Shown here: piece by piece, positions 12,905 to 35,452 of the stretch
Numbering within the stretch: the first letter of the stretch is position 1
Layout of the letters: each line of letters starts with the position of its first letter
Source: a virus
Length of the DNA: 35,452 nt
Strand: one strand, 5' to 3'
IMG/VR virus record: IMGVR_UViG_3300010354_000264
Location: 1-35,452 of that record
Made by a program: the position numbers and the translations under genes
The notes under the pieces: generated by a model
Database searches by the model: none
The model's input: the letters and a program-made list of their open reading frames with translations, nothing else
Told to the model about the DNA's origin: nothing

Positions 12905-14008
12905 TTAAGCGTTGTAATCTGAATAGGTCGCAACCCAATAGATCACATCGTTGTTAGCCCCAACAAGAACAGAAGATGCATCAGATGCGCATGCTCCTGC
13001 GCCGATGACAAATCCTTGTCTTGTGTTGTTAACAAATGCGCCTTGGATAGCAGGCCCGTTGATTGTGCTTACTCCGTTGACAACTGGAGATGGATACAGA
13101 TTGCCTCCGCTATATTGGACGCCTCCTGTATTGACATCACCGACTGCAACAACTTGTGGGAACTGAAGCCCTGGCACACTAGCAATAGGTTGGTTAGTGT
13201 TGAAAGCTGACATTCCTGTTGATACAGCGTTGCAAACAAACTGTGTAGCACTTGTAACAGATGTCACAATGTAATATAGCGGTGATCCTGGGATCAATCC
13301 GTTAGGTAGAGAGTTAAGCTCTACGGTACCCCAAGCTGATGGAATACGGAAAGCAATCTCTTGTCCTACTACATAGTTGTGAGCTGCTGTTGTTGTTACA
13401 GTTGTTGTTGCTCCTAAGGAGATAGCTTCGATGTAAGACACTCCAGGTGCATACAAGAAAGGATAATTAACTTTCTTAACAAATGCTCCTGTTGGAGATG
13501 TTGACAAAGCTGTGTAGTTAGATCCGTTTCCAGGCCATACTACGCTAAAATGATCAGCATCACCAACTGCGCTTACTCTAAATGGCATACCGCAAATTTG
13601 TGCCATACCTGTCGTTGCAGACTGATATAAGCCTTCAAACATAACGGTGTCGCCTACGCTATATCCGTGAGCTGTAACGTTAAACACGATCGGATTAGCA
13701 GCAGTTGCGCCAATGATCTGTTTTTGTGGTCCAAAAGACCAGTTAAGCCCTGCAGAAAATGATGAGATACCGTTTGATACAACAACGCCAGTTGTTAAGA
13801 CTGGAGTAGCGTTAAACAGATCGCATACTGCGTAGCCTTGGCCCATGTACGCATCCCAAACTGCACGAGGAATTCCGTGGTTAGCTGGGGTTGCAGCAGA
13901 TGTATAGTTCCAAAGCTCAACATGTGTTGGAGCAAAAGGCAATGAAATGACTTTAGATGCTCCTGTAGAGGTAAAAGATCCTCTAGCAATCTTTGAGTAT
14001 TCAGCCAT
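12905..14008 (-). CDS. Capsid-adjacent structural protein with FCCH-like modules
   Basis: Translation most likely starts at ATG 14008 (MAEYSKIARGSFTSTGASKV), overlapping the capsid stop as TAATG with GGAGG upstream. This gives 367 aa and not the longer frame from 14041. A beta-rich opening is followed by modules of the same type as in the nozzle (TAHGYSVGDTVMFEGL at about 125, AHNYVVGQEIAFRIPSA at about 220). The last part, GFVIGAGACASDASSVLVGA followed by NNDVIYWVATY, suggests a compact C-terminal domain. Its place directly after the major capsid gene suggests a decoration, head-fibre or head-completion protein. The specific role is inferred. Confidence 0.75.
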   Translation of the reverse strand: MAEYSKIARGSFTSTGASKVISLPFAPTHVELWNYTSAATPANHGIPRAVWDAYMGQGYAVCDLFNATPVLTTGVVVSNGISSFSAGLNWSFGPQKQIIGATAANPIVFNVTAHGYSVGDTVMFEGLYQSATTGMAQICGMPFRVSAVGDADHFSVVWPGNGSNYTALSTSPTGAFVKKVNYPFLYAPGVSYIEAISLGATTTVTTTAAHNYVVGQEIAFRIPSAWGTVELNSLPNGLIPGSPLYYIVTSVTSATQFVCNAVSTGMSAFNTNQPIASVPGLQFPQVVAVGDVNTGGVQYSGGNLYPSPVVNGVSTINGPAIQGAFVNNTRQGFVIGAGACASDASSVLVGANNDVIYWVATYSDYNA

Positions 14009-15691
14009 TATACACCTCCATAGCTTGTAGCACGTGTGCAAAGCAAGTTGCGGATCGCTGTATCTTGGGTGATCGCTTGGGCTTGCCAGAACTTGATTGC
14101 AAGTGTGGCGTTTTGTGCGAGCATTCCAGAATAGTATGGATCTCTATAGATCAAAGACATACTACATCCGTCTTGGTTAATGTGTGTCACAGCTTGCTTA
14201 CCGAGCACTGTGTTGTAATACACAGCTTGGTTGTTAGCAGATGCTTGTGGCATTACAGGTGCTTCAGATGTTGTGAGAATGCGGACGTTAAATACAGATC
14301 CGTATTCACAGAACAATGCTGAGCTGTTATTTGGGTAATTGTATTGTGCAATAAATCCTGAGCCTGTTAGAGCATCAAAATCTGATTGCAACTGTGTAGA
14401 AGAAATCATAAAGTACGCACTTCTTACTGGTGCTGTACCAAATTTGTTTTCTCCTTCAATACCCGACACAAACTTATACGCATTATTTGTGTCTAAAGTT
14501 GTCGCTACAAGCGAAAAGTCAGAAACTCCTAAATTCGTAGGATTGTCCGAATTTGCGCCGCCGCTAGCGTTGATTTGTGACGCTGCGGACACGATGTAAT
14601 CTCTGAGGATCAGGTCCTCTGACTGTCTCATACAGACAGCAAGACGTTCTGAAACCCATGCTAAAACGCCTTCTTGCAATTTGTTACTCCTCTTGCGAGG
14701 GGAATGGTCATTTCTGCCATTCTCTCATACTCTCATATGAGACCGGACTATATCTTCACGACGTTATTAAATCGTGTTTGGCGTGTAGTCTCTGAGGATT
14801 TTAGATTGAGTCATACCTTTATATGAAAACATCTTATTGTAAATTTGCTGTTCTTGAATACCATAAGGTGTTTTTTTTGGTTTGCTTTTTCTTAAATTTA
14901 TAAAATCTAACACAAGTTTTGCCCTTTCCTTTTTTATACCTATTAGATAAGGAAAAATTAAATCAAGAAATGCTTTTGTTCTTTTCATGCTTCTCATGAT
15001 AATTTCATATCGTTCTAAAGATGGCCCTTTACCTAATCCTGATCCTTTTCTTTTCACAACTTGATATTGAACTTTATATTTATTTAATATTCTTACACAT
15101 TCATTTATAAGATCCTCTGCCGTGTTACTGATTCCACAATTTGGATCAAATCGGAAGTATCGTTTTCCATTTTGTAAACTAGAGTTTTTTGTTAATGAAA
15201 TCCAACCTTCTCCTTTAGTGAATGCTGCTAACCATGATATTTCCCACTCTAATCTTTCCTGCTGATTTTCCATTGTTTCATCTATTTGATTTTTACGTTT
15301 TACTATATAATGTGATAGTAATTACGTACAAATAGCTTTAGGAGGTTCCAGCATATAGCCAAATTTATACAGGACCAATTTTAAAAAAATCCTGAATTAT
15401 TACTTGCTCATTGATCACACAGCCAGTACCGAAGATTGCCATTTGTGCATCAATAATATCTCTTTGCGGTACTTGAGCTGGAGGATCTATCCCGCTATTC
15501 CCAAGTTGTACGGTTGCTGGTTGCAACGCGCGTGGTCGCATGAAACGCATTGTAGTACCACCGTTAGCTGGCATAGACACCTTATCGCATACAATGATGT
15601 ATGGCAAAGTTGGGGTAGGTGTGTACAGCATAGCTGGTGCTAACGACTGCAGAATCATAGGACCTAGGTTGCCAGTAGTTGTAATTGCCAC
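14008..15691 (-). CDS. Major capsid protein, N4-gp56 type, split by a group I intron
   Basis: The coding sequence is in two exons, 15691-15371 and about 14676-14008. It begins with GTG at 15691 after AGGAGT (MAITTTGNLGPMILQSLAPA). Exon 1 has the family pattern of a Pro-rich entry, NGGTTMRFMRPRAL and PATVQL. Exon 2 opens QEGVLAWVSERLAV then MRQSEDLILRDYIVSAAS, which aligns without gaps to the PVLTEA...LDTIVRD helix of N4-gp56 capsid proteins as remembered. The join gives 329 aa, in the family range. Without splicing, exon 1 would stop after 108 residues, so splicing is essential for virion assembly. Exact exon edges are inferred. Confidence 0.85.
14677..15370 (-). ncRNA. Group I self-splicing intron in the capsid gene
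   Basis: On the minus strand the 5' part has a P4/P5-type element TGCTGGAACCTCCTAAAGC (15353-15335). The R element TCAGAGACTACACG is at 14795-14782 and the S element AAGATATAGTCC at 14756-14745. R and S pair as P7 (GACTA/TAGTC). CACG (14776-14773) and CGTG (14760-14757) form P8. AATGG/CCATT (14721-14703) and CCTC-GCAA-GAGG (14700-14689), with a GNRA loop, fit P9 hairpins. The proposed 5' site is U|G at 15371/15370. The 3' end at G14677 keeps frame and gives 694 nt. P1 is not resolved and the edges could shift by a few codons. Confidence 0.85.
14767..15273 (-). CDS. LAGLIDADG homing endonuclease in the intron
   Basis: This 168-aa protein carries one degenerate LAGLIDADG motif, ISWLAAFTKGEGWISL (about residues 13-28), where the Glu in GEG would be the metal-binding acid. 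Downstream helices and basic stretches (VVKRKGSGLGKGPSLERYEI) follow the family pattern. A single motif means it should act as a homodimer, cutting intronless capsid alleles to spread the intron. The ORF lies in the loop between P6 and P7, and its last codons (ILRDYTPNTI then stop) form the R element of the ribozyme core. The start ATG 15273 has no strong ribosome site. Confidence 0.85.
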   Translation of the reverse strand: MENQQERLEWEISWLAAFTKGEGWISLTKNSSLQNGKRYFRFDPNCGISNTAEDLINECVRILNKYKVQYQVVKRKGSGLGKGPSLERYEIIMRSMKRTKAFLDLIFPYLIGIKKERAKLVLDFINLRKSKPKKTPYGIQEQQIYNKMFSYKGMTQSKILRDYTPNTI

Positions 15692-15917
15692 TGTTGACTC
15701 CTAGTAAAAAAAACTATGTTGATATGCTGAAAGGTGGACGATACCTATTACGTCCGTTGTCACACATATCTAGATGAGAGACAAGCTCTCAGTTGATTGC
15801 CGTAACGCTGGCAGCGATGATTGCCTGTAACGCGGGCTAGCGATAATTGCCTGTAACGCGGGCTAGCGATGTCGTATTGACAATTTGTATACTAAAAAAT
15901 TAACTTAATATTTATCA
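15692..15917 (-). promoter_or_regulatory. Structured leader of the capsid gene
   Basis: The gap between the scaffold terminator and the capsid GTG has no ORF of note. On the minus strand it holds a TTGATA near 15918 with TAGTAT about 18 bases on as a weak promoter, then 26-bp tandem repeats, a GAGA/TCTC hairpin near 15775-15790 and a perfect GGACG/CGTCC hairpin near 15735-15755 before AGGAGT. A long folded leader could set capsid mRNA stability or translation. This is inferred from sequence only. Confidence 0.4.
15793..15866. repeat. 26-bp tandem repeats in the capsid leader
   Basis: Two units at 15815-15840 and 15841-15866 differ at one base (CGAT[G/A]ATTGCCTGTAA then CGCGGGCTAG). A degenerate third copy lies at 15793-15814, and a fragment CGAT follows at 15867. 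A related piece (TTGACGCTGGCTAGCGAG) occurs at 16648-16665. The core TAGCGATAATTGCCT recurs at the portal start (20221-20235). Confidence 0.8.
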
Positions 15918-23685: not shown

Positions 23686-24300
23686 TTAAAACATAGCGCG
23701 TTGTTTTTTATGATTTTCAGGCGGTATACCTAATAGATAGTTGTCCCAGAATTGTTTCGCAACTTGATGCATATCGTGTATAAGATTTATATCTGGATCT
23801 ATTGTGTAGTATGCCATCTCATTAGACTCTGGGATATATGCTATGATATCTGCACGTGGAAATACATTGTTACATGCCATAGCTATACCTAGTTGCCATT
23901 GCACCTGCATGTAATAATGTCTAGGTACATTGTGATCAGCTATTAGATCATATGTTTTACGTCCTGGTACTTTGATTTCAATAATCCTATTGCTGTCCGC
24001 ATCATATCCATCTAGTGATGCACGTACGTATGTCATCTGTGGATGTATAAGACATACAGGCTCGTAATTTATGCTTACTTTGTTGTTATATTTACGCCTT
24101 GCTTCAGGTTCATACATTTTACCTTTTTGCATCGCAGGCGTACTTGGTTTTTCTTCGCAAAAACCTGATTTTTCGTTATACACTTGTAATGCTTTTTTGT
24201 ACGGGCATACACCCATTAAAGCAGCGATATCGGATGACCCGATACCGCCCTTTCGAAATTCGTGCCATTCTTGCGAACCTTGTTCGATTTTTCCCATCAT
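23686..24300 (-). CDS. YqaJ/lambda-Exo-type recombination exonuclease
   Basis: This 204-aa protein has the YqaJ opening QGSQEWHEFRKGGIGSSDIA (GSSD at about 21-24), a Glu in YEPEARRKY, then the core VRASLDGYDADSNRIIEIKV with Asp and EIK acids of the PD-(D/E)XK fold. A Gln-Tyr type segment HYYMQVQWQLGIA follows. It should digest one strand from DNA ends and feed single strands to the ERF annealing protein encoded directly upstream. The adjacent ATGs at 24300 and 24297 both work. Length is in the family range. Confidence 0.88.
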   Translation of the reverse strand: MMGKIEQGSQEWHEFRKGGIGSSDIAALMGVCPYKKALQVYNEKSGFCEEKPSTPAMQKGKMYEPEARRKYNNKVSINYEPVCLIHPQMTYVRASLDGYDADSNRIIEIKVPGRKTYDLIADHNVPRHYYMQVQWQLGIAMACNNVFPRADIIAYIPESNEMAYYTIDPDINLIHDMHQVAKQFWDNYLLGIPPENHKKQRAMF

Positions 24301-24912
24301 CTATGCACGAATTCCCCTATGTTTTTGTATTTCGCTGATGCGATTAATAACTGATTTATAACTTGCTTTTGGCAACTCTTCCAATACTTTAATCTTGTAG
24401 CCTTTTAAAATTTGCTCTTCGACGTCTGGTGTTACTATTAACATAGCGCGTAGTTGTGTTAACTGCTGTTCATCTATTGCTGTTGTTTCGACTGATTTTT
24501 TTGTCGGTAGTTCTACGCATGAGTTACCGTCATCATCTTCTTCATCGCATATAACACCTGCAAGACTGGATAACGCATAACGTTTCATATACGTGATGTA
24601 TGCACCTAGTGACTGCACATCTGATTTTGACGGTGTAAGTCGTACTGATGATCCAACCCATTGACCTGATACGTGCATAATCTTTGTAACTACGTATGTA
24701 TTGTCTGTCTCGTTAGTGTATATAGATTGTATGTAACACAATCCATGCTTTGGAAAAAATTCTTTGAGTATCTTTTGTACTGTTGCTAGATCTGTGTATT
24801 TGCTTTTAAAAAACGGATTTTCGTTGTCCTTTTTTGCAATCCACATTTCTTGCTGTGCTTTGCAAAGTGCGGCTGCTATATGATTAATTTCTACGCTGTT
24901 AATTTGGTCCAT
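24301..24912 (-). CDS. ERF-type single-strand annealing protein
   Basis: This 203-aa protein has the ERF-type body: AAALCKAQQEMWIAKKDNEN, then NPFFKSKYTDLATVQKILKE, then QSLGAYITYMKRYALSSLAG followed by VICDEEDDDG. The YxTDLATV...SxGAxITYxKRYALxxLxGI order is diagnostic. It anneals complementary single strands during phage recombination and replication. ATG 24912 follows AAAAGGACTAAC. Its stop touches the exonuclease start, so the two are co-translated and form a Red-like pair. Confidence 0.9.
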   Translation of the reverse strand: MDQINSVEINHIAAALCKAQQEMWIAKKDNENPFFKSKYTDLATVQKILKEFFPKHGLCYIQSIYTNETDNTYVVTKIMHVSGQWVGSSVRLTPSKSDVQSLGAYITYMKRYALSSLAGVICDEEDDDGNSCVELPTKKSVETTAIDEQQLTQLRAMLIVTPDVEEQILKGYKIKVLEELPKASYKSVINRISEIQKHRGIRA

Positions 24913-25768: not shown

Positions 25769-25788
25769 CCTTCACCTAAAGGTGAAGG
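25769..25788 (-). repeat. Right-end hairpin of the IS, within the expected omega RNA
   Basis: CCTTCACCT-AA-AGGTGAAGG is a perfect 9-bp stem overlapping the tnpB stop region. In this family the right end is both the TnpA recognition hairpin and the 3' part of the guide RNA. Confidence 0.65.
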
Positions 25789-26897
25789 CTTCTAGGGATT
25801 TCTCCCAGGCCATCCAATCCGAAGGCCAAAATATTTTGCGCTGCGTTGAAATCCCTATGTGCCGTATACCCACATTGGAAACATTTGTGCTCTCTTTCGG
25901 CTAATTTCTTCGGCTCCAAATGTCCACACTGTGAGCAAATTTGGCTCGTATACGCAGGGTTCACCAGTCCCAACTTCCTACCAGCTTCTGCCGCTTTGTA
26001 GGTGAGGAATTGACGAAACTGATTCCAGCTTGCATCTGCTATGCTTTTTGCAAAATAAGATCCTTCTATCATGGTTTTGACGTTCAGATCTTCTATGCAA
26101 ATATATTGATATTGATCGACAATTTTTCTAGATTGCTTGTGACAAAAGTCTCTTCTTTGATTTTTGATCCGTTCATGGATTTTAGCCACAACCTTCCCTG
26201 CCTTGCGACGCTCTTTAGTCCCTTTTTGCTGTTTGCTCAGTTTTCTTTGCGCTTTTGCAAGAGCTCTTTCTCCCTTTTTGAAAAATCTAGGGTTTGCAAT
26301 CTTTTCTCCGTTAGACAAGGTGGCAAAGGATTCAAGTCCCACATCAATCGCAATCGCTTCTACCAAAGGTTCTGGTGGAGTAATTTTGACTTTGCAGGAA
26401 AGGGTGACATCCCACGCTCCTGAGGCTGTCTTTTTAATCGTGCAAGTTTTGACCTCTCCCTGAATGGGACGATGCGCCTTCATCCGAATCCGACCAACTT
26501 TAGAAAGAGTGATTTCTTTGCCAAGCACAAGAAATCCACTCTGTGGATAACAAAAACTGTCGTAGCGGTGCATTCCACGAAACCTGGGAAACCCGGGCTT
26601 TTCTTCTATTTTGCATCTACGAAAAAACGCTTGAAATGACTTATCCAAGCGATCGACAATATTTTGCAATACTTGAGAATGTACTGTTTTTAACGAGGGC
26701 CGTTCTTGCTTGAGGATCGGCAAAAACATCAGTTGCTGATACTTTGAGAGGGACATGTCTAATTCCTTGTAAGCCGTCTTCCTCTGCAAGAGCAGTTCGT
26801 TGTATAACCATTGACACTCATTTAATTGCGCCTGCAACAACTTGGCTTGCGCTTTTGTCGGATGGAGTCGGAATTTAAATGCCTTTCGAACAAACAT
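25776..26897 (-). CDS. tnpB: TnpB RNA-guided endonuclease (IS605 OrfB)
   Basis: This 373-aa protein has the OrfB opening FKFRLHPTKAQAKLLQAQLN, then the RuvC acids: Asp185 (IAIDVGLESFA), Glu269 (CIEDLNV) and Asp349 (HRDFNAAQNI). The zinc ribbon between them has CSQC at 321-324 and CFQC at 339-342. All catalytic residues are present and length is typical of full TnpB (350-420 aa). TnpB uses the element's right-end RNA to cut empty sites and so retain the element. Its guide would be the flank on the minus strand, the 3' end of the HTH gene (CTTGTATTTGTCAAACAACC). Confidence 0.93.
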   Translation of the reverse strand: MFVRKAFKFRLHPTKAQAKLLQAQLNECQWLYNELLLQRKTAYKELDMSLSKYQQLMFLPILKQERPSLKTVHSQVLQNIVDRLDKSFQAFFRRCKIEEKPGFPRFRGMHRYDSFCYPQSGFLVLGKEITLSKVGRIRMKAHRPIQGEVKTCTIKKTASGAWDVTLSCKVKITPPEPLVEAIAIDVGLESFATLSNGEKIANPRFFKKGERALAKAQRKLSKQQKGTKERRKAGKVVAKIHERIKNQRRDFCHKQSRKIVDQYQYICIEDLNVKTMIEGSYFAKSIADASWNQFRQFLTYKAAEAGRKLGLVNPAYTSQICSQCGHLEPKKLAEREHKCFQCGYTAHRDFNAAQNILAFGLDGLGEIPRSLHL

Positions 26898-26920
26898 GCG
26901 ATTATGTTATCGTTTGGTCT

Positions 26921-27340
26921 ATGAATTTGTCAACTGATTTAAGAAGAGGAAGAACATGCGTTTTTCTCATGCACGTACATTTGGTCTTTGTAACAAGATA
27001 TCGTCGTCCTGTATTTACAAAAGCGATTTTGGAGCATCTTAAAGCGATTCTCAAAGATGTGTGCTCCGATTTTGAAGCCAATTTAGTGGAATTTGATGGA
27101 GAAATGGATCATGTTCATTTACTAGTCGAGTATCCGCCCAAGGTCAGCATTTCCAAGCTGGTCAACAGCCTCAAAGGGGTCTCTTCACGACTGTTACGGA
27201 AACAAAACTATCCCAGCATCCAAAAAGCCTTGTGGGGGAAAAGTTTGTGGTCTCCTAGTTATTTTGCGGGTAGCTGCGGAGGGGCACCTTTGAGCGTTAT
27301 CAAACAATATATTGAACAACAGGCATCCCCAGAAATTTAA
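26921..27340 (+). CDS. tnpA: TnpA Y1 HUH transposase (IS200/IS605)
   Basis: The preferred ATG 26921 (MNLSTDLRRGRTCVFLMHVH) matches the usual start of this family and gives 139 aa. The longer frame from 26879 overlaps tnpB's start. HUH motif His64-Val-His66 lies in MDHVHLLVEYPP, and the catalytic Tyr130 is in IKQYIEQQ. The short length and RYRRPVF block are typical. It excises and inserts the single-stranded element using the subterminal hairpins. It is divergent from tnpB. Confidence 0.92.
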   Translation: MNLSTDLRRGRTCVFLMHVHLVFVTRYRRPVFTKAILEHLKAILKDVCSDFEANLVEFDGEMDHVHLLVEYPPKVSISKLVNSLKGVSSRLLRKQNYPSIQKALWGKSLWSPSYFAGSCGGAPLSVIKQYIEQQASPEI

Positions 27341-30017: not shown

Positions 30018-30287
30018 ATGAATATTACACTAGAAGAAGTTAAACAAAATTTAGACCGTGGCAAAAGTCAGGTGGTCGGATGGGCACTTGTTAACTTAGC
30101 TGACAAAATGAAAATTTGGATTAACGTCGTCAATGGTGAGCATGGATATTATTTACGCTTTCCCAGCCAAAAAATCGACGGTAAGTTTGTCCCTACTGTC
30201 CAGTGGATAAATAAAAATATGCTTAAACAAATATCCAATGCTGTGCTAAATGATGTAAAAAAAGAATTACCTAGATTTTTAGAATGA
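30018..30287 (+). CDS. SpoVG-like small protein (tentative)
   Basis: This 89-aa protein (MNITLEEVKQNLDRGKSQVV) has the pattern WALVNLADKMKIWINVVNGE then HGYYLRFPSQKIDGKF, and ends with a helix, LKQISNAVLNDVKKEL. The order beta hairpin, G-x-x-L-x-F/M-PS-x-K, then C-terminal helix fits the SpoVG-type fold, whose members bind nucleic acid. Residue-level support is modest. ATG 30018 follows AGGAAGAAGAAAAA. Its stop overlaps the resolvase start (ATGA). Confidence 0.6.
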   Translation: MNITLEEVKQNLDRGKSQVVGWALVNLADKMKIWINVVNGEHGYYLRFPSQKIDGKFVPTVQWINKNMLKQISNAVLNDVKKELPRFLE

Positions 30288-30679
30288 AGATTTTTTTTGA
30301 TGGGCCACCTATAGCATTATCACGACCTAGATTTTCGCGATACGGTGTGTACGACAGGCAAAAAGATGAAAAAAGACGATGTGTATGGCAACTCAAATTA
30401 CAAGAAGTAACGTGTATTTTAACTGGTCCGATATCTGTACATATGCATTTTTACATGCCTATACCCGAGAGCTATTCCTATAAAAAAAAAAAGGAATTAG
30501 AAAAAAAATATCACATAGGTAAAAAAGATTTAGATAACATGATCAAATTCTACAATGACGTGTTGAATGGTCATGCATATGCTGACGATAAACAAATTGT
30601 AGAAATCTATGCTATAAAATTGTATGATACTAAACCACGTACGGAGATCCAAATATGGCCGTTACCGAAATCACAGTAG
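30284..30679 (+). CDS. rusA: RusA-type Holliday junction resolvase
   Basis: This 131-aa protein has the RusA order: FFDGPPIALSRPRFSRYGVY near the start, a strand SVHMHFYMPIPESYSYKKKK in the middle, and the catalytic acids in HIGKKDLDNMIKFYNDVLNG then HAYADDKQIVEIYAIKLY. It cuts branched recombination intermediates before packaging. Length is typical (about 120-140 aa). It overlaps the upstream stop by four bases and the downstream small gene by 25 bases, so all three form one operon. Confidence 0.88.
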   Translation: MKIFFDGPPIALSRPRFSRYGVYDRQKDEKRRCVWQLKLQEVTCILTGPISVHMHFYMPIPESYSYKKKKELEKKYHIGKKDLDNMIKFYNDVLNGHAYADDKQIVEIYAIKLYDTKPRTEIQIWPLPKSQ

Positions 30680-31054: not shown

Positions 31055-32392
31055 TTACGCCAGTATGTACTCGGTTATGATACAATAACCTAATCCACCA
31101 ACTCCCCCAGCAAGTCCACCGCCACCACTGCCTTGTCCTGACGATCCAGATCCACCGCCGCCGTTTGTGCCGTTGTTTGCTGAGCTGTTGCCAAACACGC
31201 TTTGACCACCAAAACCATATACGTTGCTGCCTCCAGCTCCACCATATGCATAATCTTTGTTGCTTGATGCGTGAAAAGATGCTCCTGGAGATCCTGATTG
31301 CCCTGTTTGCGCATATGTGCCTGGTGTTGTTGCTGTGCCGCCTAATCCTCCAGGCGAAGCATAAAAATTAGGACTACTAGCACCACCTGTACCCCCTGAT
31401 CCGCCTGCACATACTAACAAAGCACCAAAACTGCTAGCACTTGCATTACCGCCATTACCGCCAGTATTAGCTCCTGCTGTGCCGTTTGCTCCAATTGTAA
31501 CAACTTGTGATGCTCCTACTTGTGCTGCGGTAAATAATTTTTGCGTATAACCTCCTGCACCTCCGCCACCGCCATTACTACAATCGTTGCCTGGGTTAGC
31601 AGCGCAACCTCCACCGCCTCCACCTGCAGCTTGTAACTGCACAAATGCATATAACAACCCGCTTGCAAATGTGTGTGTATTAACACCTGATGTGTACACT
31701 GTTTCTATAATCTGTATAGATTTTGCAGTTGGTGCAGATGCTGTGTTACCTGCTAATATCTGCTGATTAGCTAATGTTATTGCTGTTAATGCTGTTGTAC
31801 CTGTTGCACCTGATATAACGGGGCCGTTTATTGCAAATGATGTCGATCCTGTACCGCCATTATCTACAGGTAATGTGTTTGTGACGCTTGTTGTTAGATC
31901 CACTAATGACCATATTGGATCAACTCCTGGGCCTTGGCATTGTAAATATTCGCCAACTGCTCCTGCTGCTACTGCTGATATGCTAGATGTCTGACCTAAT
32001 AGTACGCTATTACTTGTTGCTGGTAATATGACATTAGCTGTTAGTTCGTGTGTAGTTGGATTGCCAACGATGTTGATTGTTGTTGTATCTCCTAACACAG
32101 ATATTTCGTTAGATGTATTTGGTGATACTGCACCGCCTGTATTACCGACTAATTTTTCTACGGCTGTTTGTGAGCCAACTAATAACCAATTTGCAGCTGT
32201 GACACCGTTAAGTGTGCTATAGCCTGTAAGTATGTATTCTTTGCCGTTAGTGGTATTTAACCACTTTTTTTGCACGGGATATTGTATGTCGTAGATTGTT
32301 GGATCGCGAGTTTGAAAAACGTAAATGAACACATTGGTTGATGTGCCCCCTGTCGCAACTGTATTAACTGTGTTTGCTGTTGGATAAGTCAT
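31055..32392 (-). CDS. Glycine-rich tail fibre/adhesin A
   Basis: This 445-aa protein has three parts. Residues 1-75 are the virion-docking module shared with the 280-aa fibre (VFQTRDPTIYDIQYPVQKKW). The middle is a beta-rich shaft with DNGGTGSTSFAINGPVISG. The C-terminal 190 residues are extremely Gly-rich (LQAAGGGGGGCAANPGNDCS, then GGAGGSNVYGFGGQ), ending GLGYCIITEYILA. Gly-rich blocks of this kind form polyglycine-type helices in known phage tip adhesins, so it is a likely receptor-binding tip. It is paralogous to adhesin B at 33632-32583. Confidence 0.8.
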   Translation of the reverse strand: MTYPTANTVNTVATGGTSTNVFIYVFQTRDPTIYDIQYPVQKKWLNTTNGKEYILTGYSTLNGVTAANWLLVGSQTAVEKLVGNTGGAVSPNTSNEISVLGDTTTINIVGNPTTHELTANVILPATSNSVLLGQTSSISAVAAGAVGEYLQCQGPGVDPIWSLVDLTTSVTNTLPVDNGGTGSTSFAINGPVISGATGTTALTAITLANQQILAGNTASAPTAKSIQIIETVYTSGVNTHTFASGLLYAFVQLQAAGGGGGGCAANPGNDCSNGGGGGAGGYTQKLFTAAQVGASQVVTIGANGTAGANTGGNGGNASASSFGALLVCAGGSGGTGGASSPNFYASPGGLGGTATTPGTYAQTGQSGSPGASFHASSNKDYAYGGAGGSNVYGFGGQSVFGNSSANNGTNGGGGSGSSGQGSGGGGLAGGVGGLGYCIITEYILA

Positions 32393-32428
32393 GATGTATC
32401 CTTTTTAATTTTTTAACTCGCGGATCGA

Positions 32429-32566
32429 TTATTTATGTTTTGCACTATGCGCGGCTTTATGGCGTGTAGGTTTATGATGTGCTGGTTTTGCATGTTCTTG
32501 TTTTTCTGTCATCTTTGCTAACACTTTTTGTGCTTTTTTAAGATGTTGCATTGCTTTCTTATGCAT
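32429..32566 (-). CDS. Small His/Lys-rich protein (45 aa)
   Basis: The frame ATG 32566 to TAA reads MHKKAMQHLKKAQKVLAKMT and continues EKQEHAKPAHHKPTRHKAAH. AAGGAGACAAT precedes the start. It is strongly basic, with a helical first half and a His-rich, Ala/Pro tail. It lies between the two adhesin genes. A DNA-binding or fibre-associated role is possible. The clean ribosome site favours a real gene. Confidence 0.6.
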   Translation of the reverse strand: MHKKAMQHLKKAQKVLAKMTEKQEHAKPAHHKPTRHKAAHSAKHK

Positions 32567-32582
32567 ATTGTCTCCTTGCTGT

Positions 32583-33632
32583 TTAAGATAAAATAAATTC
32601 CGTAATTGTTACCGTTCCTTGCGATCCTGCTCCGCCTGCTAATCCGCCCCCACCGCTAGCAGTGCCTGAAGCACCCCCTCCGCCAGCTCCGTATGCTCCT
32701 CCGCTATTACCTCCAGAATTTCCAAAAACCATTTGGCCACCACCTGAAGTGCGTGAATTACCTCCTGCACCGCCTGTAACTATATAGTTAGTGCTTGAAG
32801 TATATGTACTAAACCCAGGAGCACCGCCTTGACCAAAGGAAAACATTTGACCACCTGTAGGTATAGTAGAACCAACACCTCCTGCTCGTGATACTGCGTT
32901 AGCTGTAGCTGCACCGCCAGTACCCCCAAGGCCTCCATTTACAACTAGTAGTGTTCCTAAACTGGTTGCACCGCCATTACCGCCGTTACCGCCTGTGTTA
33001 GCTCCTGCTGTACCGCCCGCACCCACTGTCACTGTTTGTGATGCGCCAAGAGTTGCTGCAGTTAAATAAGAAGCGGTATATGACCCACCTCCACCACCTC
33101 CGCCACAAGATAACGTAGCGCCTGCGTTAGATGCGCAACCTCCACCGCCTCCGCCTGAACCTTGCACTTCGCAAAATGCAAAAATCATACCTGTTTGAAA
33201 TGTATGAGTGTATGTACCTGAAGCGTTGTAAAAAGATAACACTGTTTTAAGCGTTTTTTTAGTTGGTGCTGCTGAAGTGTTGCCAACCAAAAATTCTTGG
33301 TTTGCCAAAGTAACCGCTGTTAACGCTCCTGTTGTCGTTGTGCTAGATATAACAGGGCCGTTAATATTAAATGTAGTGCTTCCTGTGCCACCGTTGCCAA
33401 CTGGCAAAGTACCAGTCACACCGTTAGCCATATTGACTTGATCCCATGCAGGGTTATTGCTAGTGCCTGTATTGGCAAGATAACGCGTTGCTGTAGTGTT
33501 TTTTGTAAGAGCGCTGATAGTGTTAGCTGCTGAGCCATACAATATATCACCTTGCGCTACAGTTGCTATGCCTGTACCGCCTTTTGTGACTTCTATTGGT
33601 ATGTTACTGTTGATTGAGTTGTTTGTTGGCAT
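32583..33632 (-). CDS. Glycine-rich tail fibre/adhesin B
   Basis: This 349-aa protein begins MPTNNSINSNIPIEVTKGGT then GIATVAQGDILYGSAANTIS, a module also carried by the long fibre across the join. The shaft has NGGTGSTTFNINGPVIS. The C-terminal 190 residues are Gly-rich (EVQGSGGGGGGCASNAGATL) and align with adhesin A throughout (GANTGGNGGN; GGGGLAGG; ending TVTITEFILS). The Cys pair near the first Gly run is kept in both. It is probably a receptor-binding tip or alternative adhesin. It starts 9 bases after the long fibre's stop. Confidence 0.8.
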   Translation of the reverse strand: MPTNNSINSNIPIEVTKGGTGIATVAQGDILYGSAANTISALTKNTTATRYLANTGTSNNPAWDQVNMANGVTGTLPVGNGGTGSTTFNINGPVISSTTTTGALTAVTLANQEFLVGNTSAAPTKKTLKTVLSFYNASGTYTHTFQTGMIFAFCEVQGSGGGGGGCASNAGATLSCGGGGGGGSYTASYLTAATLGASQTVTVGAGGTAGANTGGNGGNGGATSLGTLLVVNGGLGGTGGAATANAVSRAGGVGSTIPTGGQMFSFGQGGAPGFSTYTSSTNYIVTGGAGGNSRTSGGGQMVFGNSGGNSGGAYGAGGGGASGTASGGGGLAGGAGSQGTVTITEFILS

Positions 33633-33641
33633 ATGTACCTA

Positions 33642-35452
33642 TTATACGTATGTTATGTTACCGATGCTGCCTAATGCTACCCATGTCGTATCTGCTACAA
33701 CGCACAACAATCCGATACCATCATATTGATTGGTTGATTGCAAATTACCTGTGATACCTGTTGTAGTCGTAGTAGCACCAAACTTAATACTTTGACCTGC
33801 GTTTTGAGCTATTTTCCAACCGCCTGCTCCAACTCCTTGTACGCGGATAATTGTGCCGTATGCTGCTGTAGTTGGTAATGTCAATGTTACTAGACCTGCG
33901 TTATTAGCTGTGTAACCGTTATTAGCCGCCATAGTCTGGCTAGTGCCTGTAACATTAGTCCAGCTGTATTCTAACGCACTTGGAGTTGCCCATGTACCAT
34001 CTCCGCGCCAAAATGTTGTTGCAGATGCGTTAGTGCCGCTATTGAGGTTAGTTACTGGTAGATTGCCTGTCACGCCGTTAGATAGGTCAACTTGTGCCCA
34101 TGCAGGGTTGTTGCTAGTGCCTGTATTAGATAGATATCTTGTTGCACTGGTATTTTTAGCAAGAGTTGTTAACGTATTAGATGCAGATGCATACAATATA
34201 TCCCCTTGCGCAACGCTTGTTAAGCCTGTACCGCCGTTAGTAACAGCAAGCGTGCCTGTTAATGATATTGTTGCCCCAGAACCTAATGTTGTTAATCCCG
34301 TTGTACCGCCGTTAATTGTTAGTGTGTTAGCTGATGGGACTGCAGACCCTGAGTTACAAGTGTATGATGTGGCAACTGATGTAGCAGCAGCTATGCTAAT
34401 AGAGTTGTTACCATTGGTTATGCTGATGCCAGTGCCTTGAGTTAACGTAGCTGCTGCAGGAGTTGTCGTGCCTCCAATTACAATTTGACCAGATGTAAGT
34501 GTTAACGAGGTTAATGCGCCAGTTGTAGTTGTGCTAGAAATTACAACGCCGTTAACGTTAAAACTTGTAGATGCTGTACCGCCATTTGCAACCCCTAATG
34601 TACCTGCTAATGATACAGTTGCACCTGCACCTGTTGTTGTTAGTCCAGTTGTGCCACCGTTAATAGTCAATGCATTTGCTGAAGGCGTTGCTGACCCTGT
34701 GTTGCAGTTATATGTCGTAGCAACAGATGCACCAGCAGATATAGTAACAGAATTGTTGCCATTACTTATGCTAATACCTGCACCAGGTGTTAACGTAGCA
34801 GCTGCAGGGGTTGTTGTACCTCCTATAACAATCTGTCCAGATGTAAGTGTTAACGAGGTTAATGCGCCAGTTGTAGTTGTCCCCGAAATTACAACGCCAT
34901 TAATGTTAAAACTTGTAGATGCTGTGCCGCCATTTGCAACCCCTAATGTACCTGCTAACGATATAGTTGCACCTGCACCTGTTGTTGTTAGCCCAGTTGT
35001 GCCACCGTTAATAGTTAACGTATTGGCTGAAGGTACTGCAGATCCTGAGTTACAAGTGTATGATGTGGCAACTGATGTAGCAGCAGATATTGTAATAGAG
35101 TTATTACCGTTGGTTATGCTGATGCCAGTGCCTTGAGTTAACGTAGCTGCTGCAGGAGTTGTTGTACCTCCTATAACAATTTGTCCAGACGTTAATGTTA
35201 ACGAGGTTAATGCGCCAGTTGTAGTTGTCCCCGAAATTACAACGCCGTTAATATTAAATGTAGTGCTTCCTGTGCCACCGTTACCAACTGGCAAAGTACC
35301 GGTTACACCGTTAGCCATATTGACTTGATCCCATGCAGGGTTGTTGCTAGTGCCTGTATTGGCAAGATAACGCGTTGCTGTAGTGTTTTTTGTTAAAGCA
35401 CTAATAGTATTAGCTGCTGAGCCATACAATATATCACCTTGCGCAATGCTAG
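33642..35452 (-). CDS. Long repeat-built tail fibre, C-terminal part
   Basis: The frame is open to the right edge and continues into 124-1276 when the 123-base ends are overlapped (987 aa in all). It carries three further modules of about 110 residues (SLTLTSGQIVIGGTTTPAAA, ISNGNNS, TINGGTTGLTT, LGVANGGTASTSFN). The C-terminal domain has TFWRGDGTWATP, then NAGLVTLTLPTTAAYGTIIR and VQGVGAGGWKIAQNAGQSIK, a pattern seen at the ends of many phage fibres. The stop is at 33644-33642. It makes up the fibre shaft and tip of the virion. Confidence 0.85.
   Translation of the reverse strand, partial: SIAQGDILYGSAANTISALTKNTTATRYLANTGTSNNPAWDQVNMANGVTGTLPVGNGGTGSTTFNINGVVISGTTTTGALTSLTLTSGQIVIGGTTTPAAATLTQGTGISITNGNNSITISAATSVATSYTCNSGSAVPSANTLTINGGTTGLTTTGAGATISLAGTLGVANGGTASTSFNINGVVISGTTTTGALTSLTLTSGQIVIGGTTTPAAATLTPGAGISISNGNNSVTISAGASVATTYNCNTGSATPSANALTINGGTTGLTTTGAGATVSLAGTLGVANGGTASTSFNVNGVVISSTTTTGALTSLTLTSGQIVIGGTTTPAAATLTQGTGISITNGNNSISIAAATSVATSYTCNSGSAVPSANTLTINGGTTGLTTLGSGATISLTGTLAVTNGGTGLTSVAQGDILYASASNTLTTLAKNTSATRYLSNTGTSNNPAWAQVDLSNGVTGNLPVTNLNSGTNASATTFWRGDGTWATPSALEYSWTNVTGTSQTMAANNGYTANNAGLVTLTLPTTAAYGTIIRVQGVGAGGWKIAQNAGQSIKFGATTTTTGITGNLQSTNQYDGIGLLCVVADTTWVALGSIGNITYV
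35330..35452. repeat. Terminal direct repeat, right copy
   Basis: These 123 bases are identical to 1-123. See the left copy for what this implies about circularity. Confidence 0.9.

Follow-up and report, generated by a model that had tools for sequence, protein, structure and literature searches.

The window analysed here is a stretch of 35,452 nucleotides (nt) covering positions 1 to 35,452 of the IMG/VR virus record IMGVR_UViG_3300010354_000264. Its minus strand carries a major capsid gene of the N4-gp56 family that is split by a 712-nt insert. The insert has the borders and the conserved core of a group I intron, and it holds an open reading frame (ORF) for a putative LAGLIDADG homing endonuclease. 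The capsid genes of relatives are interrupted at many further sites, at four of them by inserts that keep the splice-site marks of group I introns and have no core. In the window, the minus-strand ORFs at 15691-15365 (108 codons and a stop), 15273-14767 and 14679-14008 are as the first-pass annotation of this stretch had described them, and we assign the locus as follows.

15389..15691, minus strand: capsid exon 1, GTG start, codons 1-101, ending in ...ATT CAG GAT
14677..15388, minus strand: group I intron, 712 nt, phase 0, terminal G
15370..15375, minus strand: internal guide GUCCUG (3′ strand of P1), read from the sequence
Within 15329..15363, minus strand: 5′ strands of P3 (15363-15358), P4 (15353-15349) and P5 (15335-15329), fully complementary to their 3′ strands
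14767..15273, minus strand: ORF of a predicted LAGLIDADG homing endonuclease, 168 amino acids (aa), on the sense strand
14677..14790, minus strand: 3′ half of the core, from P7 to the terminal G, by covariance models and helix check
In this half, minus strand: P7 (14790-14786 with 14750-14746) and the 3′ strand of P3 (14782-14777)
In this half, minus strand: P8 (14776-14772 with 14761-14757), then P9, P9.1, P9.2 and the terminal G at 14677
14008..14676, minus strand: capsid exon 2, codons 102-323 and stop, beginning CAA GAA GGC

The intron borders were set by group I rules, namely a P1 helix with a U.G pair at the 5′ splice site and a terminal G. The end of exon 1, CAGGAU (last base 15389), pairs with the guide GUCCUG at 15375-15370 and places the U.G pair at the splice site. 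The UUG just 5′ of the guide could pair with the CAA that opens exon 2, giving a candidate P10 of 3 base pairs. Pairing is free of mismatches in P1, P3, P4, P5, P7, P8, P9, P9.1 and P9.2, and the conserved P3-P9 core includes the P3/P7 pseudoknot. The GNRA loop reported earlier for the P9 hairpin is GAGA. The first-pass annotation had placed the intron at 15370-14677; its 3′ edge stands at 14677, while its 5′ edge lies 18 nt away, at 15388. Because the codons after CAGGAU belong to the intron, with GUCCUG at 15375-15370 as its guide, the length of 329 aa given for the joined protein is corrected to 323 aa. A search with the Rfam model Intron_gpI (RF00028), proposed in the same annotation, matched 14867-14724 (minus strand) with 32.2 bits and an E value of 2.8e-6 in a targeted scan of 851 nt. 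A covariance model of our own, described below, matched 14842-14677 (minus strand) with an E value of 1.9e-5 for the window alone.

Against TIGR04387 (N4-gp56 major capsid; cut-off 60), the joined 323-aa protein scored 89.1 bits in a single match that runs across the junction, in agreement with the capsid identity proposed before. The halves scored 12.0 bits (exon 1) and 68.9 bits (exon 2), and an intronless homologue scored 84.4 bits. The joined protein also aligns through the junction with intronless homologues. Neither outcome that the first-pass annotation had named as refuting the intron was observed. The neighbours of the capsid gene, a portal (phrog_156) and a PBSX-type terminase, fit a head module.

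The ORF inside the intron contains a single motif, LAAFTKGEG, in which the acidic residue is kept. The G, E and G of this motif are invariant in an alignment of the window ORF with 14 relatives (15 sequences). An AlphaFold model based on these 15 aligned sequences reached a predicted local distance difference test (pLDDT) score of 85.3, and its best Foldseek matches in the PDB were I-CvuI, I-MsoI and I-CreI, with E values from 1.7e-7 onwards. By fold and motif the product is a single-motif LAGLIDADG protein; a LAGLIDADG endonuclease had been proposed from the letters alone. The window ORF resembles I-CreI, I-MsoI and I-CvuI in fold, size and location in a group I intron, but differs in having only about 18% identity and in sitting in a phage capsid gene; a sequence search of the PDB with the window endonuclease gave no match. 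The start of the ORF overlaps the 3′ strand of P4 (15264-15260).

About 170-200 relatives of the window capsid were found in IMG/VR, while neither exon 2 nor the endonuclease had a relative among the INPHARED phage records. Some relatives sit in contigs of metagenome-assembled genomes (MAGs) that are assigned to unrelated phyla, and these assignments are therefore probably binning errors. From IMG/VR and MAG contigs we compiled a set of 135 distinct capsid genes from this group of uncultivated phages, the window included, and aligned a capsid profile to the gene DNA by a spliced dynamic program. Inserts of at least 20 nt were catalogued, with borders set by the rule of a U before and a G after together with the protein score. 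The gene was uninterrupted in 63 of the 135 and interrupted in 72, with a total of 175 inserts at 38 sites and up to six inserts in one gene; since the relatives collected first had been ranked by the similarity of an unbroken exon 2, the interrupted fraction is not a population estimate. The spliced proteins of all 135 genes are free of stops. At the site of the window intron, about 60 of the first 80 relatives are uninterrupted and align without a gap across codons 101 and 102, so that the empty site is at hand, and five other genes carry an insert at exactly this site, each with a core match. In these phages, introns preferentially target the capsid gene.

The compact inserts of the relatives, 36 sequences of about 200 nt, align into P3, P4, P5, P6, P7, P8 and P9. 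Bases were paired in 94.0% of the cells of this alignment compared with 36-44% when slid, and there were 235 double changes compared with 67 in shuffles. RF00028 was unusable for classifying the inserts, and we therefore built a covariance model from the compact introns and calibrated it. Even at an E value of 0.1, RF00028 gave no match in six loci with covarying compact introns (L084, L097, L099, L104, L120 and L152), and it is thus insensitive to the group to which the window intron belongs; introns of this compact capsid kind may be widely missed by Intron_gpI. Our model gave 155 matches in 730 kb, all on the capsid gene strand and inside inserts. The sole match beyond the catalogue was an insert of L147 at codon 144, which has no U/G border and was therefore uncatalogued. 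A core was present in all 130 inserts at 34 of the sites.

The inserts also hold 42 LAGLIDADG ORFs, of which 31 are antisense to the capsid gene and 11 sense. Eight of the 11 sense ORFs lie in inserts without a core, and the window ORF is a divergent member of the sense group. Antisense ORFs occur in introns of L002, L017, L035, L041, L087, L103 and others. Antisense endonuclease genes are known from the mycobacteriophage LittleE (PMC3706429) and from introns of ribosomal DNA (PMC9548176).

In our reading, with a probability of about 95%, the window insert is a mobile group I intron that encodes a single-motif LAGLIDADG protein and interrupts an N4-gp56 capsid gene in phase 0 behind codon 101. 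Several search results weigh against this reading. A whole-window Rfam scan at the gathering threshold listed no intron, the 32.2 bits being below the curated 50 bits; Pfam LAGLIDADG_3 matched the ORF at 13.3 bits (E value 0.1) against a threshold of 22.5; the best PHROGs family carries the name 'HNH endonuclease', which conflicts with the fold; and an IMG/VR search with the ORF found a single relative, at 31% identity. The 50-bit cut-off of RF00028 is a detection threshold and not a defining feature of group I introns, and the same holds for the Pfam cut-off missed by the ORF. A dead or decaying capsid gene, or an assembly error, would be conceivable for a single virus contig of 35,452 bases, but the exact group I borders with P1, the full core, the intact exons, the occupation of the same site in five other contigs and the stop-free spliced proteins throughout the set leave such explanations a very small chance. 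Inteins and the translational bypass of T4 gene 60 likewise restore split frames, and the window product might be rejoined in one of these ways. The stop codon in frame right behind exon 1 rules out an intein, an insert of 712 nt that contains a group I core is no bypass gap, and both P1 and the terminal G are marks of RNA splice sites, so that we regard rejoining other than by RNA splicing as a negligible prospect. For the mobile group I intron that we favour, guanosine would attack after CAGGAU held by the guide GUCCUG, and exon 1 would then attack after the terminal G at 14677 to give the 323-aa capsid protein. The endonuclease would presumably cut intronless capsid alleles in mixed infections, and repair would copy the intron into them. 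Virion formation would depend on splicing, as the first-pass annotation had suggested.

A different class of insert was found at nt 264, 275, 312 and 342 of the gene. Our model detected no core in any of the 45 inserts at these sites (29-987 nt), which we call guests. The guests retain P1, P10, the U.G pair and the terminal G. In the 36 short guests the sum of P1 and P10 pairing was 1071, compared with a shuffle mean of 215 and a maximum of 331. The base opposite the last exon U, which was left free in the test, is G in all 45. P1 and P10 covary between guests: UUCGGU/GCCGAA and UUUGGU/GCCAAA; ACUGG/CCAGU, ACAGG/CCUGU and ACGGG/CCCGU; CUGCAU/GUGCAG and CUGCGU/GCGCAG. Eight inserts of 950-987 nt at nt 312 represent one element, which carries a LAGLIDADG gene with two motifs (288-296 aa in the inserts that were read). 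This gene lies between the 5′ border and the guide, that is, inside the P1 loop, and only the guide and about 18 nt are left after the ORF, which leaves no room for a core.

Guests keep strict company with core-bearing introns. They are present in 43 of the 72 interrupted genes and in none of the 63 uninterrupted ones (Fisher's exact test: p = 3e-16), and wherever a guest occurs in the 135 genes, a core-bearing intron follows it downstream after 24-168 nt of exon. Conversely, a guest lies upstream of the core introns at nt 290 (8/8), 296 (2/2), 350 (4/4) and 366 (18/18), and of five of the six at nt 303, where the exception is the window gene, which has no guest. On a capsid tree built from codons 126-322, guests change at least 34 times. 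In independent pairs, they accompany core introns at 290-366 in 7.4 of 8 cases compared with 0.1 for the opposite (median p = 0.016).

The tail of the guest, between its guide and its 3′ border, pairs with the exon. In 39 of the 45 guests of the discovery set, the exon strand of this helix stops 7-10 nt short of the 5′ splice site of the neighbouring intron and so adjoins the exon strand of that intron's own P1. The tail helix sum was 880 compared with a shuffle mean of 505 and a maximum of 579. When the tail is scored at every candidate neighbour position, the actual neighbour strictly outscores the others in 37 of 45 guests, with 8.3 expected; the genes being related, these counts are not independent events. 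At the neighbour positions the sum was 815, at other positions 334, and in tail shuffles 257 on average and 347 at most. Tail and exon covary, CTTGGCGCAT pairing with ATGCGCCAAG, CTTGTCTCA with TGAGACAAG, GTTGATGAT with ATCATCAAC, and GTTGATTAT with ATAATCAAC. Exceptions to the tail pairing are neighbours at nt 296, some at nt 303, and those of L139 and L132 at nt 366.

These rules were derived and first tested on the same data, and a small hold-out set of 24 further-fetched genes was used for replication. It contained ten guests, all at the same four sites. All ten had a U before the insert, a G at its end and a G opposite the U, and in all ten the model found a core-bearing intron downstream, while the eight uninterrupted genes of the set had no guest. 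The tail pairing was weaker in this set, with a sum of 123 compared with a shuffle mean of 60 and a maximum of 99. The site, border, pairing and neighbour rules are thus replicated, while the precise way in which the tether is arranged is less certain.

A still smaller kind of insert occurs at codon 81, where six genes (L084, L097, L238, L104, L120 and L152) have 1-4 extra nucleotides that shift the frame. These are exactly the genes that carry an intron of about 210 nt after codon 69: frame-shifting micro-inserts were found in 6/6 genes with this intron and in 1/129 others (p = 9e-10). The forms are GAU-G-GCG, GAU-AG-GCA, GAU-UUAG-GCG and GAU-UAAG-GCG (micro-insert between hyphens), all ending in G. 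The micro-inserts follow AUCGAU, the same six bases as at the codon-69 intron's own splice site, and the guide of this intron also pairs with the four bases after the micro-insert, with one co-change (GCGC/GCGU versus GCAC/GUGU). The codon-81 micro-inserts fit removal through the guide of the codon-69 intron, which would match engineered trans-excision splicing, where segments of 1-28 nt are removed (PMC4094466, PMC6155759). Two other small inserts were noted. In L084, L097 and L238, codons 94-96 read ATCATCAAT-AG-CAGGTG; Glu95 is absent, and a U is followed by two additional bases, the last of them G. A guide for these 2-nt inserts was not found. L022 has two extra bases at codon 7 (GGT-TG-AAC) that break the frame, and no guide for them was found among the L022 introns.

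We consider it rather likely, from these sequence patterns, that guests are excised by the core of the downstream intron, most of them tethered to the exon, in a natural form of trans-excision splicing with which the codon-81 micro-inserts are consistent. The guest would be recognised through P1 and P10 on its own guide plus the exon tether, and it would be removed as RNA by the next intron's core before that intron removes itself.

Other fates of the guests were weighed against this. A protein or a ribozyme from elsewhere in the phage might remove them, or translation might skip them, and it speaks for such readings, and against the neighbour as agent, that the tails of the hold-out guests strictly favour the actual neighbour in just 4 of 10. 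We find a remover elsewhere or translational skipping unlikely nonetheless, given the core intron downstream of every guest, the absence of guests from the 63 uninterrupted genes and the preference of the tails for the actual neighbour in the discovery set. Translational bypass was rejected for lack of matched take-off and landing codons: at site 264 the codon before the gap is GGT, whereas the guests end in TTG, GCG, AAG, TAG and others that are not GGN. Templated inverted copies were rejected since these would place A, and not the observed G, opposite the U; the G found in 45/45, which the test had not required, fits neither inverted copying nor bypass. The gaps at codon 88 are also no part of the next intron, as the capsid protein requires the intervening codons and these occur only once. 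Guests might instead stay in the mRNA of capsid genes that are inactive and perhaps replaced by a second copy. Each guest, if retained, would break the frame or bring stops (an open frame is left in 0/45), the exons between guest and neighbour are almost invariant in protein, as in uninterrupted genes, and guests show many gains and losses on the capsid tree (17 changes for 264m) with full complementarity kept. Retention is therefore highly improbable in our view, and excision by the downstream intron's core remains the reading that we prefer.

Elsewhere in the window, a short direct repeat, ATCGCTAGCCCGCGTTACAGGCAAT, lies 5′ of the capsid gene at 15800-15880 (minus strand). Recombination genes at 23686-24912 (minus strand) and 30284-30679 (plus strand) encode a YqaJ-type nuclease, an ERF annealing protein and a RusA resolvase. 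An IS200/IS605 element at 25776-26897 (minus strand) and 26879-27340 (plus strand) has divergently arranged genes for a TnpB-like protein (OrfB_IS605, Cas12f1-like) and a Y1 transposase. Three long ORFs at 31055-35429 (minus strand) contain many repeat units such as TLTSGQIVIGGTTTPAAATL and probably encode repeated fibre or adhesin proteins.

Taken alone, the window intron represents an element of a known kind. A precedent is LittleE, a cluster J mycobacteriophage with a group I intron in its major capsid gene, the splicing of which was shown by reverse transcription PCR (PMC3706429). Capsid genes had been described in the first-pass annotation as less common hosts than others, which is a fair statement, yet LittleE shows that capsid introns were already known. 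LittleE and the window share a capsid-gene intron with a U at the exon end, a G at the intron end and an endonuclease ORF inside; in LittleE the single intron bears an HNH gene in antisense orientation (PMC3706429), whereas the window ORF is a sense-strand LAGLIDADG gene and a capsid gene of the window's relatives can contain as many as six inserts. Two or three group I introns per phage gene are known from Twort orf142 and from Bastillevirinae, with exon skipping between neighbours (PMC11878797). The hosts of those introns are mostly polymerase, terminase and nucleotide metabolism genes, unlike the present case of one capsid gene with 38 intron sites and one class without a core.

Engineered trans-excision-splicing ribozymes and spliceozymes use a group I core to cut out a separate segment of 1-28 nt or of about 100 nt (PMC4094466, PMC6155759). 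They resemble the proposed removal of guests in their recognition through P1 and P10, and differ in that the guide of a guest lies inside the insert and most guests pair with the exon beside the neighbour's 5′ splice site. In the open-access literature, with preprints and subscription papers largely outside the search, we found trans-excision splicing only as an engineered reaction and no natural case, so that priority is not proven.

The group III introns of euglenid plastids are stripped-down elements thought to need a core supplied from elsewhere. They derive from group II introns, whereas the capsid inserts described here bear group I marks. If the splicing of the core-less inserts is confirmed, they would constitute a new category of natural group I introns.

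The window intron is a clean case in which the expected dependence of a virion protein gene on a ribozyme can be tested. Group I introns are usually treated as self-contained. If the proposed excision of guests is true, group I splicing would be naturally divided into substrate modules and a shared catalyst. Such a division has been suggested for the evolution of the spliceosome from group II introns, and until now it has been constructed only in the laboratory (PMC4094466). The pairings between guest tails and the exons beside their neighbours can be broken and restored, and thus contain a built-in test. Natural trans-excision splicing of guests would also be a way for an intron to become indispensable, acting as an addiction mechanism in which loss of the core intron would leave the capsid gene unspliceable.
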